This document shows positions 50,887 through 57,749 of a stretch of DNA of 61,449 nt, in pieces. A program made the translations under genes and the position numbers. Under the pieces are notes generated by a model. The model had not been told where the DNA came from, made no database searches, and saw only the letters and a list, made by a program, of their open reading frames with translations. Source of the stretch: Bacillota bacterium (lineage in GTDB: Bacteria; Bacillota; Sulfobacillia; JAJZYS01; JAJYTV01); NCBI GenBank assembly GCA_021793645.1, contig JAJYSJ010000014.1, positions 1 through 61,449 of the forward strand. Direction: 5' to 3'. Every line of letters starts with the position of its first letter. The first letter of the stretch is position 1.

Positions 50887-51360
50887 ATGAGCGACGATGG
50901 GGAACTGCAGTTCGTACTCTTCGAGATCGAAGGAGTCCACTACGGCGTAGAGGTCGAGCGCGTGCTCGAGATCATCGCCCGTCCGGAAATTAGCCGCGTG
51001 CCGTCTGCCTTGGACTGCGTCGAGGGTGTCATCAACCTGCGCGGCAACGTCCTTCCGGTGATGGATCTGCGCATGCGCTTTCGCCTGGGCGGCGATGCGG
51101 CGAAGGCGACCCACATCGTCATCGTGCAGCTGCAGGGCGCCCTCGCCGGCATCTCCGTCGACGGCGTCTCGCAGGTGGTGCGCATCCCGATCGCCTCGAT
51201 CGAACCGGCGCCGCCTGCGATCACCGGGCCGCAGGTGCGCTACATCGAAGGCATCGCCAAGCTCGAGGGGACGCTCTGCGTACTCATCGACCTGGATCGC
51301 GCCTTCCGTCCCGAGGAACTCGCACTAGGCGCGGCAGGGGGTGATCTCGATGGCCGCTGA
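50887..51360 (+). CDS. cheW: CheW coupling protein (second copy)
   Basis: A 157-residue CheW with LFEIEGVHYGVEVERVLEI, RVPSALDCVEGVINLRGNVLPVMDL and a C-terminal LCVLIDLDRAF strand. It lies directly before cheA with a small overlap, indicating it is the core coupler of the receptor array. The copy at 4756 is more divergent and tied to one receptor. Confidence 0.95.
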   Translation: MSDDGELQFVLFEIEGVHYGVEVERVLEIIARPEISRVPSALDCVEGVINLRGNVLPVMDLRMRFRLGGDAAKATHIVIVQLQGALAGISVDGVSQVVRIPIASIEPAPPAITGPQVRYIEGIAKLEGTLCVLIDLDRAFRPEELALGAAGGDLDGR

Positions 51361-53251
51361 CGGAGGCTGGACGCTCACAGACGACGATCGCCAGCTGTTC
51401 TTCGCCGAGGCGGAGGAGATGGTGCAGACGCTCGAGGAGGGTGCCCTCGCGCTGGAGCGCGGTGGCGAGAACCCCGAGATGCTGCAGGCCATGTTCCGGG
51501 CCGCCCACACGCTCAAGGGCAACTCCGGCCTTGTCGGCGAGGCCGGCATCGCCGGCCACATGCACCACATGGAGGCGCTCCTCGACGACCTGCGCGAAGG
51601 TCGGGTGGCGGTGACGCCCGCACTCGTGCAGCAGGTGCTCTCGGGCATCGACGCATTGCGCGAGATGCTTGCCCAGTTCGCGCAGGGCGTCTCGCCAACC
51701 GCGGCCCCGCAGGCGCCGGCGGTGCCTCTGGCAGAGGGCGAGGCGCCAACAGCCGCGATCGGGCTGCCGCGCTACGTGGTGCAACTCGCCGTCGATCCGT
51801 CGTGCGCCATGCCTGCCGTACGGGTCTTCCAGGCCTACCAGGCACTTTCGCGCCTGGGCCTCGTCGAGCGTACCGACCCGCCGCAGGACGGCCTTGCACG
51901 GTTTGAGGGACGCAGTGCGACGGTCATCGTGCGCCTGCAGCGCCCGGATGACGTCAAGGAGGCCCTGGCGGACGTCGACGAGATCCAGCTGGAGAGCGTG
52001 CAGGCGGAGTCCGTAGTGGCGGCCGCAGCGCCGATGGCGCAGTCCGCCGAGGCTGAGCGCGAGGCGGCGACCCAGACCGTTCGCGTGCGCGTCGACCTCT
52101 TGGACCACTTGATGAACCTTGTCGGGGAGCTGGTGCTGGACCGCACCCGCGTCGCGGATCTGGTGTCCCGCCTCGATGGCGGCAAGGACGAACAGAGCGA
52201 AGAGGTCCGCCAGGAGCTCTCGCGCTCTTCGCTGCATCTCGGGCGCGTCACGCTCGACCTGCAAGAGACGATCATGAAGGCGCGCATGCTGCCGATCGAA
52301 CACCTGTTCCGCCGCTTCCCGCGCCTTGTCCGGGACTTGGCGGCGAAGTCCGGCAAGCGCATCGCGCTCGACATCTACGGCCAGGACACCGAGCTCGATC
52401 GCATGGTCATGGATGAGCTCGGCGATCCTCTGACCCACATCTTGCGCAACTCCGTCGACCACGGCATCGAGCCTCCGGAAAAACGCCTGGCCGCAGGCAA
52501 GACGGAGGAGGGGCACATCATCCTGCGCGCCTCCACCGAGGAGGGCTACGTCGTCGTCGACGTCGTGGACGACGGCGACGGCATCGACGCCGAGGCGGTG
52601 AAGCGCACGGCCCTAAGGCGCGGCGTCCTGACGCCGGAGCAGGCGGAGCGCATGACGATGCGCGAGGCGCAGGAGCTGATCTTCGCACCCGGCTTTTCGA
52701 CGTCGGAGGAGGTAACCGAGATCTCCGGGCGGGGTGTCGGGCTGGATGCGGTGCGCGCGTCCCTCGAGCGCCTGTCGGGTGTCGTCGACCTCGTCACGGA
52801 AGCGGGGAAGGGCACGACCTTCCGCCTGCGCATCCCGCTGACGCTGGCGATCATGCGCGCACTGATGGTGCGCACAGGCGACTCCGTCTACGCACTGCCG
52901 CTGGGCGCCGTGCGCCAGATCGTCCGCCTCAACGCGCAGAACGTCCAGGTCGCCCATGGCCGCCCGCTGCTCGCCGACCGCGGCGAACTGATCGGGCTGC
53001 TCTCGCTGGCGGAAATCTACGGCGAGCCGGGGCGGCAGGACGAGACGTTCGCGGTGGTCGTCGGCGCCGGCGAGCGACAGGTGGCGCTGAAGGTGGGGGC
53101 GCTCCTTGGCGAGCAGGAGATCGTCCTCAAGGCGTTCGGAGACTTCCTGGGCGCGGTGCCGGGCCTCACCGGAGCGACGATCCTCGGCAACGGGGAGCTT
53201 GCCCTCGTCGCAGACGTGCGCTACTTCCTGCGCGGCAAGGAGGCGTCGTGA
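51350..53251 (+). CDS. cheA: CheA histidine kinase
   Basis: A 633-residue CheA. P1 phosphotransfer domain has His53 in FRAAHTLKGNSG; a P2-like region is at about 140-225; P3 dimerisation, P4 kinase (N box LRNSVDHGIEPPEKRLAAGK, G boxes VDDGDGID and GRGVGLDAV) and P5 CheW-like domains follow. It phosphorylates CheY and CheB. ATG 51350 has GGGGGTGA upstream; a GTG at 51341 is possible. Overlaps cheC by 4 bases. Confidence 0.97.
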   Translation: MAADGGWTLTDDDRQLFFAEAEEMVQTLEEGALALERGGENPEMLQAMFRAAHTLKGNSGLVGEAGIAGHMHHMEALLDDLREGRVAVTPALVQQVLSGIDALREMLAQFAQGVSPTAAPQAPAVPLAEGEAPTAAIGLPRYVVQLAVDPSCAMPAVRVFQAYQALSRLGLVERTDPPQDGLARFEGRSATVIVRLQRPDDVKEALADVDEIQLESVQAESVVAAAAPMAQSAEAEREAATQTVRVRVDLLDHLMNLVGELVLDRTRVADLVSRLDGGKDEQSEEVRQELSRSSLHLGRVTLDLQETIMKARMLPIEHLFRRFPRLVRDLAAKSGKRIALDIYGQDTELDRMVMDELGDPLTHILRNSVDHGIEPPEKRLAAGKTEEGHIILRASTEEGYVVVDVVDDGDGIDAEAVKRTALRRGVLTPEQAERMTMREAQELIFAPGFSTSEEVTEISGRGVGLDAVRASLERLSGVVDLVTEAGKGTTFRLRIPLTLAIMRALMVRTGDSVYALPLGAVRQIVRLNAQNVQVAHGRPLLADRGELIGLLSLAEIYGEPGRQDETFAVVVGAGERQVALKVGALLGEQEIVLKAFGDFLGAVPGLTGATILGNGELALVADVRYFLRGKEAS

Positions 53252-53781
53252 TACCAAAGGAACCGGTGGAGCACGACCCGACCGGCCTGCAGGACGCGCT
53301 CTCGGAACTGCTCGGCGTCCATGTCGACCTGCAGGAGAGCGCTCCGCAGCGCTACGCCCTGCGCGACATCCCGAACCTGGCCGGGCCGGCGGACAGCTCG
53401 GCCGTGGCCGTGTACCTGAGGGCAGCCGGGGTATTCCAAGGGCAGATCCTCCTGATCTTGCCGCCGCAGAGCGCCCGGCGGATCGGCGACCTGATGCTCG
53501 GTCCCGGCAAGTCGAGCGAGCACGTCCTCGACGCCTGCCGAGAGCTTGGGAACATCGTGGCATCGCGCTATCTGTCCCGGATGGCAGATGCCATTGGAGG
53601 GCGCGCAATTCCCTCGACGCCCCTTTCTACAGTGGATATGGCGGGTGCGGTGATCAGTTCAGTGCTGCAGCGCGCAAGCCACGATCCAGTGGTGCACGCC
53701 ATCGAGCTGCGCATGCAGGCGGCGGGGGACGCGATCCGCGGCACCGTACTCGTACTCCAGGACCAGACAAGCGAGGCATAG
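53248..53781 (+). CDS. cheC: CheC-type CheY-P phosphatase
   Basis: A 177-residue CheC. The N-terminus matches the family (LQDALSELLGVHVDL), and one active-site helix CRELGNIVASRYLS retains Glu and Asn; the usual second site is not evident. CheC dephosphorylates CheY and is stimulated by binding CheD, encoded next (1 base apart). The GTG start overlaps cheA. Confidence 0.9.
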   Translation: MIPKEPVEHDPTGLQDALSELLGVHVDLQESAPQRYALRDIPNLAGPADSSAVAVYLRAAGVFQGQILLILPPQSARRIGDLMLGPGKSSEHVLDACRELGNIVASRYLSRMADAIGGRAIPSTPLSTVDMAGAVISSVLQRASHDPVVHAIELRMQAAGDAIRGTVLVLQDQTSEA

Positions 53782-54249
53782 ATGGTAAAACGCACACCAG
53801 TGGGACTCGGTGAACTGTGCATCAGTGCGGATCCCCATGAGCGCCTATGCATCTTTGGCCTCGGTTCCTGCATCGCCGTCTACCTCTACGCACCTGGAAC
53901 ATCGGCAACCGCTCTGGCGCACGTCGTCCTGCCGGAGAGCCAGGGGCGTCCAGGGGAACCGGGGCGCTACGCCGACACAGCGGTGCCCGCACTGGTCGCC
54001 GGCCTGCGCAGCCTGGGGCATGAACCGCACCGGCTGCGTGCGGCCATCGCCGGAGGCGCAGCGGTGCTGGGCTTCACAAGTGAGATCGGGCAGCAGAACA
54101 TTCGGGCGGTACGGCGCTACCTCGAGGACTTTGGAATCCCCGTCGTCCAAGACGACACGGGAGGAATCCGCGGCCGTTCGGTGGAGTTCGATCCGCAGGG
54201 TCAGCACATCGAGGTGCGGGTGCTCGCTGCACCGCAGGTGTCGATTTAG
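53782..54249 (+). CDS. cheD: CheD receptor deamidase
   Basis: A 155-residue CheD. The catalytic Cys30 (FGLGSCIAVYLY) and His47 (LAHVVLPES) are present, and GGAAVLGF and IGQQNI fit the family. CheD deamidates glutamines on chemoreceptors and regulates CheC. It is directly downstream of cheC, the usual pairing. Confidence 0.95.
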   Translation: MVKRTPVGLGELCISADPHERLCIFGLGSCIAVYLYAPGTSATALAHVVLPESQGRPGEPGRYADTAVPALVAGLRSLGHEPHRLRAAIAGGAAVLGFTSEIGQQNIRAVRRYLEDFGIPVVQDDTGGIRGRSVEFDPQGQHIEVRVLAAPQVSI

Positions 54250-54282
54250 GCATCCTGGCTGCGTTGAAAGGGGCCGACCCTT

Positions 54283-55335
54283 TTGCTGGATAGATCGCTC
54301 CGCGTACTGATCTGTGATGACTCGGCGCTCGTGCGGCAGTTCCTGGCGCATGCCCTCGAGGGGGTACCGGGGATCGAAGTGTGCGGGCGAGCCACCGATG
54401 GGGAAGAGGCAGTGCGCCTTACCCGCCTCCTCCGCCCCGACGTCGTGACCATGGACGTCGAGATGCCCCGCCTTGACGGCATCTCCGCGGTCCGCAGGAT
54501 CATGACCGAGTCCCCCACCCCGATCCTGATGGTGTCGAGTCTCACGACGGAGGGGAGCCGCACCACGATGGCGGCGCTCGAGGCAGGCGCCCTGGACTTC
54601 ATCGCGAAGCCGCAGGGACGCGGCGATCTGCATCAGATCGGTCCGCTGGTGGCGGAAAAGATCCTTCAACTGGGCGAGCGCGGCGGCCTCGTGCTCGCCG
54701 CCGGTCCCGCGTTCGCCGCCAGTCCCGCGCGGGGAAGGATTGCGCCGCCCGCCCTTGGCACTCCGCCCCTGGTCGTGATCGGCTCGTCGACCGGTGGGCC
54801 GCGGGCCCTTTTCAGTGTGGTGCCGTACCTGCCGGCGGGCTTCCTCGCACGGGTGATCATCGTGCAGCACATGCCGCCCGGTTTCACGCGCTCCCTCGCC
54901 GAACGCCTCCATGAAGCGGGGCCGCTTCCCGTGAAGGAAGCGGAGGATGGGGAGCCGCTGCACCCAGGTACGGTCCGGGTTGCGGCGGCGGGGCATCACC
55001 TTCAGGTCGACGGCCACGTCCTGCGCTACGCAGACACTGCGCCTGAGCATGGTGTGCGCCCGGCACTGGACGTCACGCTGCGTTCGGCAGCGCAGAGCTA
55101 CCGCGGGCCGATCGTGGTCGCGGTGTTGACCGGCATGGGGCGCGATGGCGCACTGGGCGCCCAGGAAGTGCGCGAACATGGGGGCAAGGTGATTGCGGAA
55201 TCGGAGCGCACCGCCCTGATCTACGGCATGCCGAAGGCGGTCGTGGACCTCGGGGCCGCCGACAGCGTACAGGACCTGCCCGATGTCGCGGGCGAGATCG
55301 TGCGCCTGTGCGCGGAGCTCTCGAATGCCCACTGA
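54283..55335 (+). CDS. cheB: CheB receptor methylesterase
   Basis: A 350-residue CheB. An N-terminal receiver (LICDDSALVRQFL, TMDVEMPRLDG) is joined to the methylesterase domain with Ser in GSSTGGPRAL (about 168), His in VQHMPPGFTRSLAERL and Asp in TGMGRDGALGAQ. It removes methyl groups from receptors. TTG start. Overlaps cheR by 11 bases. Confidence 0.97.
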   Translation: MLDRSLRVLICDDSALVRQFLAHALEGVPGIEVCGRATDGEEAVRLTRLLRPDVVTMDVEMPRLDGISAVRRIMTESPTPILMVSSLTTEGSRTTMAALEAGALDFIAKPQGRGDLHQIGPLVAEKILQLGERGGLVLAAGPAFAASPARGRIAPPALGTPPLVVIGSSTGGPRALFSVVPYLPAGFLARVIIVQHMPPGFTRSLAERLHEAGPLPVKEAEDGEPLHPGTVRVAAAGHHLQVDGHVLRYADTAPEHGVRPALDVTLRSAAQSYRGPIVVAVLTGMGRDGALGAQEVREHGGKVIAESERTALIYGMPKAVVDLGAADSVQDLPDVAGEIVRLCAELSNAH

Positions 55336-56098
55336 CGACTACGAGGCATTCCAGGAGGCCGTGCTCCGGGTGATGCACCTCGACCTGCGGCTTTACAAGC
55401 GAGAGCAGATGGAGCGGCGGCTGCGCGCCTACGGTCAGCAGCACGGCTTTTCAGATCTCAAACAGCTTGCAAAGGCACTCGGGTCTGAGGCTGCCTTGCC
55501 GCAGCAGCTGCTCTCCTACCTGACCATCCATGTCTCGGAATTCTTCCGTGACCCGCGCTTTTTCGAGCAGCTGCGTGCGCTGTTGCCGCAGCTGCCGGGA
55601 GCGCCGCATGCCCTGCGCGTCTGGAGTGCCGGCTGCTCGATCGGGGCAGAGGCCTACAGCCTCGTGATGCTGCTCTCCGAAGAGCGGCCGGGTCAGCCGT
55701 ATCAGGTGCTCGCGACCGACCTCGATGACCAGAGCCTGGACAAGGCGCGACGCGGACTCTATCGCGAGGAGGAGCTGCGGCAGGTCGACCTGGGGCGGCG
55801 CAGGCGCTACTTCGCCGCGGAGGGGAAGGAGTTCCGCATCCGGCCCGACCTGCAGCGCTCCATCACCTTCCGTCACCATGACCTCCTTGCCGATCCGTAC
55901 CCTGCAGAACAGGACCTGATTCTCTTCCGCAACGTCGCGATCTACTTCACCGAGGAGGCCAAGGACCAGGTGCTGCACGGGCTCGCACGCTCGCTCGCCG
56001 CACAAGGCATCCTGATGGTCGGCTCCACGGAAGCGATTCTGCGGCCCCAAGACTATGGGCTGAGGCAGGTCCGTCCGTTCTTCTTCGTCCGGGTCTAG
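55325..56098 (+). CDS. cheR: CheR receptor methyltransferase
   Basis: A 257-residue CheR started at ATG 55325 within the end of cheB. The N-terminal helical domain precedes the SAM-binding part, with VSEFFRDPRFFEQL, RVWSAGCSIGAEAYSLVM, ATDLDDQSLDKARRGLY and ILFRNVAIYF. It methylates glutamates on chemoreceptors. Uses S-adenosylmethionine. Confidence 0.97.
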   Translation: MPTDDYEAFQEAVLRVMHLDLRLYKREQMERRLRAYGQQHGFSDLKQLAKALGSEAALPQQLLSYLTIHVSEFFRDPRFFEQLRALLPQLPGAPHALRVWSAGCSIGAEAYSLVMLLSEERPGQPYQVLATDLDDQSLDKARRGLYREEELRQVDLGRRRRYFAAEGKEFRIRPDLQRSITFRHHDLLADPYPAEQDLILFRNVAIYFTEEAKDQVLHGLARSLAAQGILMVGSTEAILRPQDYGLRQVRPFFFVRV

Positions 56099-56170
56099 AA
56101 GCCATGTGGGAGGAAAGCTTTCCCGGCTCTGCGAATCTCCAAAGGCATTGACCATTGAGGAGCGAACTGC

Positions 56171-57202
56171 GTGCCCTACGAGCCCATGACCCACGTGCAG
56201 GTCCGCATGCGCATCCGCGGTCGGGGAGAGCAGTACATCGCCTGCCCTGTGAGCGCCGCGGGCGGGCGAAGCCTGCACGTCCAGGTGCCGCGGGGCGAGG
56301 GGGGTCTGCCCTGGGTGCCGGAAGGCACGCAAGTGGAGCTCTTGCAGCGCGACGGTCTGCACATGGCGGTCGGACGCGTGCGGGCGCGGTCGCTTCGCCC
56401 CGTGCCGAGCTACGCGGTGGAACTCGAGGAGCCCTTGCTGCGCCAGGTGCTCTTCACCCCCAAGGAGGGGCGGGCGATCCTCGTCACCGGCGGCAAGGGC
56501 GGCACCGGCAAGACCTTCGTGTCCACAGGGCTCGCGGTCCTTCTCGCCAAGCAGGGCGCACGCGTCGCGCTGCTGGACGCAGACCTCGGTACGGCCGATG
56601 TGGCCGTGAACCTGCGGCTTCCGAAAGAGCCGCACCTCGGACACGTGCTCGAGGGCAAAAAGCGCATCGAGGACGTGCTGCAGCGCGACGTGCGGCCGAA
56701 CCTGAGCGTACTGCCTGGAGCGACCGGCAGGCGCTTTTCCGACCCCTCTTCCTGGAAGCTCGGGGCGATCCTGACGCTCGTGCAGACCCTGCGCCCGCAG
56801 TTCGACTATGTGGTCGTCGACTCACGCGCAGGGATCGGCAACGATGTCACGACGCTCTTCGCCGGCGTCGACCGCGTGCTGTTCGTCACCGCCGACGAGC
56901 CGGCCGGCCTCTCGGACACGCTGGAGCTTCTGCAGGCGTTCGGCGAAACCGGCCGCAGCCGGACGGGCGCGCTCGTCGTCAACCGCGTGCGCAGCTACCG
57001 CAGTTCCGTCGACCGCCTGCTCCAGTTCCGCACCGAGGTGCGCCAGCAGACCGGCAGCGACGTGCAGCTCTGGGGCGTTCTGCAGGAGGACCCCCGCGTC
57101 CACGCGCTCGCCGTGGAGGGTAAGCTGTTGCTGGACGAGTTCCCCCTGGCGCCGACGAGTGTCGCGCTTCGGCAACTCGCTGCGCGCGTGCAGGCGCTTT
57201 GA
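56171..57202 (+). CDS. MinD/FlhG-like ATPase with an N-terminal PilZN-like domain
   Basis: A 343-residue fusion. Residues about 5-95 resemble the PilZN/YcgR-N barrel (PVSAAGGRSLHVQVPRGEGG, VPEGTQVELLQRDGLHMAVG, then YAVELEEPLLRQVLF where YcgR proteins reach their RxxxR), but no PilZ domain follows. Residues about 100-343 form a MinD-type ATPase: P-loop GGKGGTGKT (about 106-114), DADLGTADVAVNL, VVVDSRAGIGND and VTADEPAGLSDTLEL, the FlhG arrangement. It lacks the DQAxxLR helix of FlhG. GTG start behind GAGGAG. It closes the che operon. I infer a flagellar-number ATPase linked to motility signalling. Confidence 0.85.
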   Translation: MPYEPMTHVQVRMRIRGRGEQYIACPVSAAGGRSLHVQVPRGEGGLPWVPEGTQVELLQRDGLHMAVGRVRARSLRPVPSYAVELEEPLLRQVLFTPKEGRAILVTGGKGGTGKTFVSTGLAVLLAKQGARVALLDADLGTADVAVNLRLPKEPHLGHVLEGKKRIEDVLQRDVRPNLSVLPGATGRRFSDPSSWKLGAILTLVQTLRPQFDYVVVDSRAGIGNDVTTLFAGVDRVLFVTADEPAGLSDTLELLQAFGETGRSRTGALVVNRVRSYRSSVDRLLQFRTEVRQQTGSDVQLWGVLQEDPRVHALAVEGKLLLDEFPLAPTSVALRQLAARVQAL

Positions 57203-57245
57203 CCTCGCTGGGGAATCCTGAAGGGATCGAAGGGGGGATACCCGG

Positions 57246-57692
57246 TTGGTCAAGTTGAGCATCTGGGAAGGCGCGGCATTCCCGCGGCTGCCGAACCTTG
57301 ATGACCTTGAGGGACGCCTCGGCAAGGATGCTGTCGCGCTCTTTTTCTACCCCGCGGCCAATACCGGCGGCTGAACGCGCGAGGCGCAAGCCTTCGAGCG
57401 GTCGCTCGAAGCGTTCCGTGAGATCGGCGTCGCGGTGATCGGCGCAAGCACAGACGAGCGGGATGTGAATGCGGACTTTGCCGAAAAGGCGGGCCTGCAC
57501 TTTCCCTTGATCTCCGACGAGGGCGGGCCCGCGTCGCGGGAGATTGGCATCTTGTCCGACGGCGGCCGGGCGGCGCGCACGACGTTCCTGATCGACCGCA
57601 CAGGCAAGGTCGCGAAGATCTTCACCGACGTGCAGGTCGACGGGCATGCGGAGGCAGTGCTCGCGGCGGCCCAGGAGATGCAGTCGAAGTAG
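57246..57692 (+). CDS. predicted selenocysteine-containing peroxiredoxin (TGA at 57372-57374 read as Sec)
   Basis: A 148-residue peroxiredoxin of the PrxQ/BCP-like AhpC-TSA family, translated through an in-frame TGA at codon 43. Upstream of TGA the frame reads FFYPAANTGG, downstream TREAQAFERSLEAF, matching the family YPxxxTPGCTxEAxxF with Sec in place of the peroxidatic Cys. The frame stays open for 105 codons after TGA, with TTFLIDRTGKV typical of the family. There is no Cys anywhere, so it would be a 1-Sec enzyme using an external thiol. TTG 57246 has AAGGGGGG 7-8 bases upstream. Immediately after the TGA is a SECIS-like hairpin. Confidence 0.88.
57392..57411 (+). promoter_or_regulatory. 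bacterial SECIS-like element
   Basis: CTTCGAGC (57392-57399) pairs perfectly with GCTCGAAG (57404-57411) around the tetraloop GGTC. The loop begins 25 bases after the TGA. The E. coli formate dehydrogenase SECIS also displays a GGUC apical loop, where SelB binds. Position, small loop and stem fit a bacterial SECIS inside the coding region. Confidence 0.8.
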
Positions 57693-57709: not shown

Positions 57710-57749
57710 GAGAAGGCCTTCCCGGCCATTTCGTCGGGAAGGCCTTCTC
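57710..57749. terminator. bidirectional terminator after the selenoprotein gene
   Basis: A perfect 15-bp stem, GAGAAGGCCTTCCCG (57710-57724) with its complement (57735-57749), loop of 10. It lies 17 bases after the peroxiredoxin stop and before the end of the convergent moxR operon. T runs are poor. Confidence 0.7.

Follow-up and report, generated by a model that had tools for sequence, protein, structure and literature searches.

Descriptions of COG1225 peroxiredoxins that carry selenocysteine (Sec) in a TxxU active site go back to 2005. Counts of them stand at 43 for the Sargasso Sea set (PMC1088965) and 12 for early genomes (PMC1794560), and they are listed in a 2026 inventory (PMC13188914). 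A further Sec peroxiredoxin is PrxU of Eubacterium acidaminophilum (Sohling 2001, as cited in PMC8533274). Here we describe a gene in a window of 61,449 nucleotides (the whole stretch of DNA that was analyzed) from a bacterium of the Bacillota. Based on sequence comparisons, we are highly confident that this gene encodes a Sec-containing peroxiredoxin of the PrxQ/BCP type, predicted to reduce peroxides and to receive its Sec at UGA 57372 via SelB and a hairpin. The features of the locus are as follows.

56171-57202, + strand: ParA/MinD-type ATPase, the conserved upstream neighbor and not part of the selenoprotein; ordinary TGA stop.
57230-57237, + strand: probable ribosome-binding site AAGGGGGG; purine-rich counterparts in relatives.
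57246-57692, + strand: Sec-peroxiredoxin gene, 148 aa with Sec; start TTG 57246 or TTG 57255, stop TAG.
57351-57374, + strand: PxxxTxxU catalytic motif (P36, T40, Sec43), invariant in 25 aligned homologues.
57372-57374, + strand: Sec43 codon TGA (peroxidatic residue); TGA in 9/9 Sec-clade genomes, TGC or TGT in Cys homologues.
57392-57411, + strand: predicted bacterial SECIS core, stem CTTCGAGC / GCTCGAAG, loop GGTC; conserved in relatives.
57576-57578, + strand: Arg111 codon, partner of the PxxxTxxU motif, invariant in the same 25 homologues.
57710-57749, no strand assigned: probable transcription terminator, judged from the sequence and from hairpins in relatives; 15-bp inverted repeat, no T run.

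Apart from the TGA at 57372-57374, the frame from 57246 to 57692 is open up to its terminal TAG. The first-pass annotation claimed that the frame stays open through this TGA at the site of the peroxidatic Cys, and this was confirmed, the TGA coinciding exactly with that Cys in AhpC/TSA-Redoxin proteins. The readthrough product has Sec at position 43 within NTGG-U-TREA and, as had also been claimed, contains zero Cys, so that Sec would be its sole redox residue. The start is ambiguous between the two TTG codons, and relatives have ATG or GTG at either site. The ribosome-binding site proposed earlier was found ~8 nt ahead of TTG 57246. Of the terminator proposed for the gene, the strong 15-bp hairpin stands but the T run is absent; the hairpins of relatives lie at the matching position but differ in sequence. 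Stop codons in the nine Sec members (window, L018, L153 and L155-L160) were TAG or TAA and never TGA, in what is a small sample, and the Cys homologue L161 has TGA as its stop codon. A paralogue search of the host genome (E up to 0.001) returned no second copy of the Sec peroxiredoxin.

Conservation of the TGA was assessed among the searched genomes of the class, of which nine at species level proved positive (the host genome G000, together with G001, G002, G004-G007, G082 and G083), with protein identities of 49-75%. Three belong to the genus of the window, four to another genus in its family, and two, G082 and G083, to another family. Three other genomes, two from the family and one from the genus, gave no match, but these are just 76-82% complete.

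Profile and structure comparisons place the protein in the peroxiredoxin fold. The AhpC-TSA domain (PF00578) was matched at E 5e-25, with 88.2 bits against a curated cut-off of 26, and the Redoxin domain at E 2e-17. By sequence, PrxQ/BCP proteins were closest in phmmer searches (best E 2e-17), and Foldseek gave BCP/PrxQ structures as the best PDB matches (E 1e-13 to 1e-11). The best NCBIfam matches were likewise PrxQ/BCP models, with scores under their equivalog cut-offs (86.1 vs 260 and 70 vs 140 bits); the PrxU model of 233 positions scored 31 bits against a cut-off of 270. The earlier description of the protein as PrxQ/BCP-like thus holds for its fold and nearest relatives but not at the level of the curated PrxQ/BCP equivalogs. 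In the AlphaFold model (pLDDT 93.8), residue 43 lies near the beginning of helix 41-52. The residues P36, T40, 43 and R111, which make up the peroxiredoxin active-site set, were invariant in the 25 homologues, and the catalytic residue is preceded by TGG instead of the usual TPG. In many PrxQ/BCP members a resolving Cys stands five residues after the catalytic one (+5). That position is occupied by Gln48 in the window protein, and the Sec relatives have no Cys there either, each carrying at most one Cys, elsewhere in the protein.

The absence of a resolving Cys leaves room for a different function, namely that Sec is inserted but the product senses redox state or is a thiol:disulfide oxidoreductase, with a possible link to the adjoining chemotaxis operon. 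The ParA/MinD-type ATPase is the last gene of a CheA-CheC-CheD-CheB-CheR run, and in all genomes of the family that carry the peroxiredoxin gene (7/7) the latter lies directly 3' of the che/MinD-type genes, the che run being traced as far as the contigs reach. Across 51341-57692 of the window, this run is followed directly by the Sec peroxiredoxin. However, the PxxxTxxU motif with its Arg is the signature of a peroxidase and is invariant, while the oxidoreductases have UxxC. In addition, G082 and G083 carry the gene among different neighbors, not che/MinD-type genes, and operon position by itself tells little. The adjacency is a lead and not evidence of a role in chemotaxis. A function other than that of a peroxidase is unlikely, and we retain the reading as a Sec peroxidase.

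The first-pass annotation named beforehand a lack of Sec machinery as a finding that would speak against its reading, and proposed a search for selA, selB, selD and tRNA-Sec. The opposite was found, as the complete set is present in the host, a 3.4-Mb draft genome that is 96% complete. A search of this assembly for 16S rRNA gave no match. The tRNA-Sec has the anticodon TCA (UCA) and scored 69.3 bits, and the profile matches for SelA, SelB and SelD were 535, 306 and 350 bits, respectively, with the GTPase, beta-barrel and winged-helix domains of SelB all present. The host selA and selD genes adjoin each other, and selD (L099, G000:C40:60408-61334) is also crossed by an in-frame TGA, in SG-U-GCK, the known Sec site of SelD. 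In the alpha subunit of a formate dehydrogenase (L173, G000:C25:59010-60887) a TGA falls in NRT-U-HAPSVAG, and the sequence after it, CGTCGCAGGTCTTGCGACG, forms a 7-bp hairpin with the loop GGUCU (also given as AGGTCT). Three additional genes, L165, L167 and L169 (G000:C9, C30 and C7), were observed to have an in-frame TGA, a UxxC motif and a thioredoxin fold (RH-U-VPC, YG-U-INC and FM-U-PFC). Judged from their sequences, these three and L173 are likely other selenoprotein genes of the host.

The proposed 8-bp stem with a GGUC loop beginning 17 nt past the TGA was confirmed. The E. coli fdhF SECIS loop, to which the GGUC loop had been likened, is a reasonable comparison: the SECIS candidates of the Sec peroxiredoxin and the Sec formate dehydrogenase of the host have a GGUC-containing loop in common. 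The bSECIS model has a loop of 3-9 nt with G in the first two bases, a stem of 4-16 bp, 16-37 nt from the UGA to the loop, and an MFE of -7.5 or lower (PMC13188914). With its 4-nt loop, 8 bp, 25 nt from UGA to loop and -12.6 kcal/mol, the hairpin fits this model, in agreement with the bacterial SECIS form claimed for it.

As stand-alone proof of a SECIS, the hairpin was rejected. When the peptide was recoded synonymously, 7% of the sequences formed an equally good hairpin, and shuffled versions of the entire 66-nt region fold just as well as the region itself. The decisive support for the predicted SECIS is conservation across relatives, and one 8-bp hairpin alone is weak. A 17-nt core, UUCGAGCGGUCGCUCGA (also written TTCGAGCGGTCGCTCGA), is invariant across 9/9 Sec members despite freely variable codons. 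Codons 50-54 (TTC GAG CGG TCG CTC) are the same in all nine sequences, although three of their residues, Arg, Ser and Leu, could each be written with any of six codons. The codon is invariant at only 12/48 invariant residues of the nine sequences, and the probability of the five-codon run arising by chance is ~5e-4 when computed from this fraction with relatedness ignored. Because the core is invariant, it offers no covariation to test. Neither core nor hairpin was found when searched for in the Cys homologues.

These data also bear on whether the TGA might be decoded as Cys or another amino acid, through a recoded code or a suppressor tRNA. An open frame under an altered code does not prove Sec, and homologues do have Cys at the position. 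Nevertheless, the host has tRNA-Sec(UCA) with SelA, SelB and SelD, TGA marks the known Sec sites of its SelD and formate dehydrogenase, conservation of the SECIS core is confined to TGA members, and the neighboring gene ends in an ordinary TGA at 57200-57202. General recoding of TGA is ruled out by that stop and by the Sec machinery, and decoding of this codon as anything other than Sec is highly improbable.

The substitution pattern indicates that purifying selection acts on both sides of the TGA. Between the window and its nearest named relative (L018, Bacillota MAG YF1.bin87, whose protein is the same as that in G002), dN/dS was 0.06/1.37 upstream of the TGA and 0.21/0.62 downstream, and no base differs in codons 44-54 (dS 0). 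Decay of the frame downstream of the TGA had been named as a second finding that would count against Sec, and in close homologues the TGA is kept and the 3' frame is undecayed. Under the standard code the TGA would be a true stop, the frame would end at 57372 and automatic annotation would begin late; the gene would then be a pseudogene in decay, or split in two, with a short protein starting at GTG 57435. This reading is refuted by conservation and barely credible, as nine such diverged genomes share the identical TGA, dN remains far lower than dS beyond it, codons 44-54 show no synonymous change, and the catalytic P36, T40 and R111 are intact; a pseudogene or sequencing error is ruled out by the nine genomes and by the selection after the TGA.

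Homologues with Cys at position 43, which the first-pass annotation suggested looking for, do exist. In the tree, the nine Sec proteins and one Cys protein, L108, form a group (98/97 support), with the remaining Cys proteins outside. L108 is the closest Cys homologue and retains the odd TGG motif (TGG-C-T), with the SECIS absent. No selA was detected in its genome, G046, which is 94% complete, and the neighbors of the gene there differ from those in the window. In comparison, selA is present in 9/9 Sec genomes, the copy in G004 being a fragment at a contig end. The branch of L108 is long and its fork with the Sec clade is open, so L108 may either have reverted from Sec to Cys or be sister to the Sec lineage. 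A second Sec PrxQ, L115 (G025:C431:1692-2084), has the usual TPG-U-T motif and does not group with the Sec clade that holds the window protein. Because of this separation, the tree indicates that Sec in PrxQ of the class has been gained or lost more than once, with at least three changes.

The protein is likely to have a 1-Cys-like mechanism, in which the Sec-selenolate would reduce peroxide and an outside thiol would regenerate it, since the protein has no Cys and its relatives have none at the PrxQ resolving position. On comparative grounds, SelB with Sec-tRNA would bind the hairpin at 57392-57411 and Sec would go in at UGA 57372. From the conserved residues and the fold, we infer that Sec43, which Thr40 and Arg111 would hold in place where the helix begins at its N-terminus, would attack H2O2 or an organic hydroperoxide. 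As the Cys-free protein supplies no thiol, one from outside, for example thioredoxin or a low-molecular thiol, would presumably reduce the resulting selenenic acid. If selenium or SelB were missing, translation would probably yield just a dead N-terminal fragment of 42 residues. A more speculative extension, which we regard as doubtful, is that the Cys-free TGGU proteins are a lineage-specific subfamily of strict 1-Sec peroxidases linked to the chemotaxis/MinD-type operon (e.g., protecting or sensing redox for motility), and that a relative in which the Sec machinery was lost went back to Cys.

The gene adds a selenoprotein, so far overlooked, to a bacterial lineage about which little is known, and standard annotation would cut it short at its active site. 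The Sec clade offers a natural experiment, in which Sec enzymes with a frozen SECIS can be set against a SECIS-less Cys homologue in a genome in which SelA was not detected. If Sec is indeed the one redox residue it has, the protein could be a clean model of a selenoperoxidase working without a resolving thiol.

Compared with known systems, the window protein shares with E. acidaminophilum PrxU that both are peroxiredoxins with Sec as the peroxidatic residue, but it belongs to a different subfamily, matching the PrxU model weakly (31 bits). The Prx-like thiol:disulfide oxidoreductases are also PF00578-related selenoproteins, but with UxxC, whereas the window protein has TxxU and no Cys after Sec. 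It resembles the PrxQ/BCP proteins (Xanthomonas campestris PrxQ, M. tuberculosis BcpB and Sulfolobus Bcp1) in its PxxxTxxC/U motif with Arg and is nearest to them in sequence and fold, but differs from them in that Sec replaces Cys and TGG replaces TPG, a resolving Cys is absent, and the NCBIfam score is under the cut-off. With the TxxU Sec peroxiredoxins of COG1225 it has in common the AhpC/TSA (PF00578) fold, a TxxU active site in which Sec replaces the peroxidatic Cys, and an in-gene SECIS right behind the UGA, while its TGGU motif, lack of Cys and near-invariant SECIS core of the clade's own set it apart. Overall, the window protein adds to an already known family of Sec peroxiredoxins, in which the TGGU motif, Cys-free sequence and frozen SECIS core are unusual.
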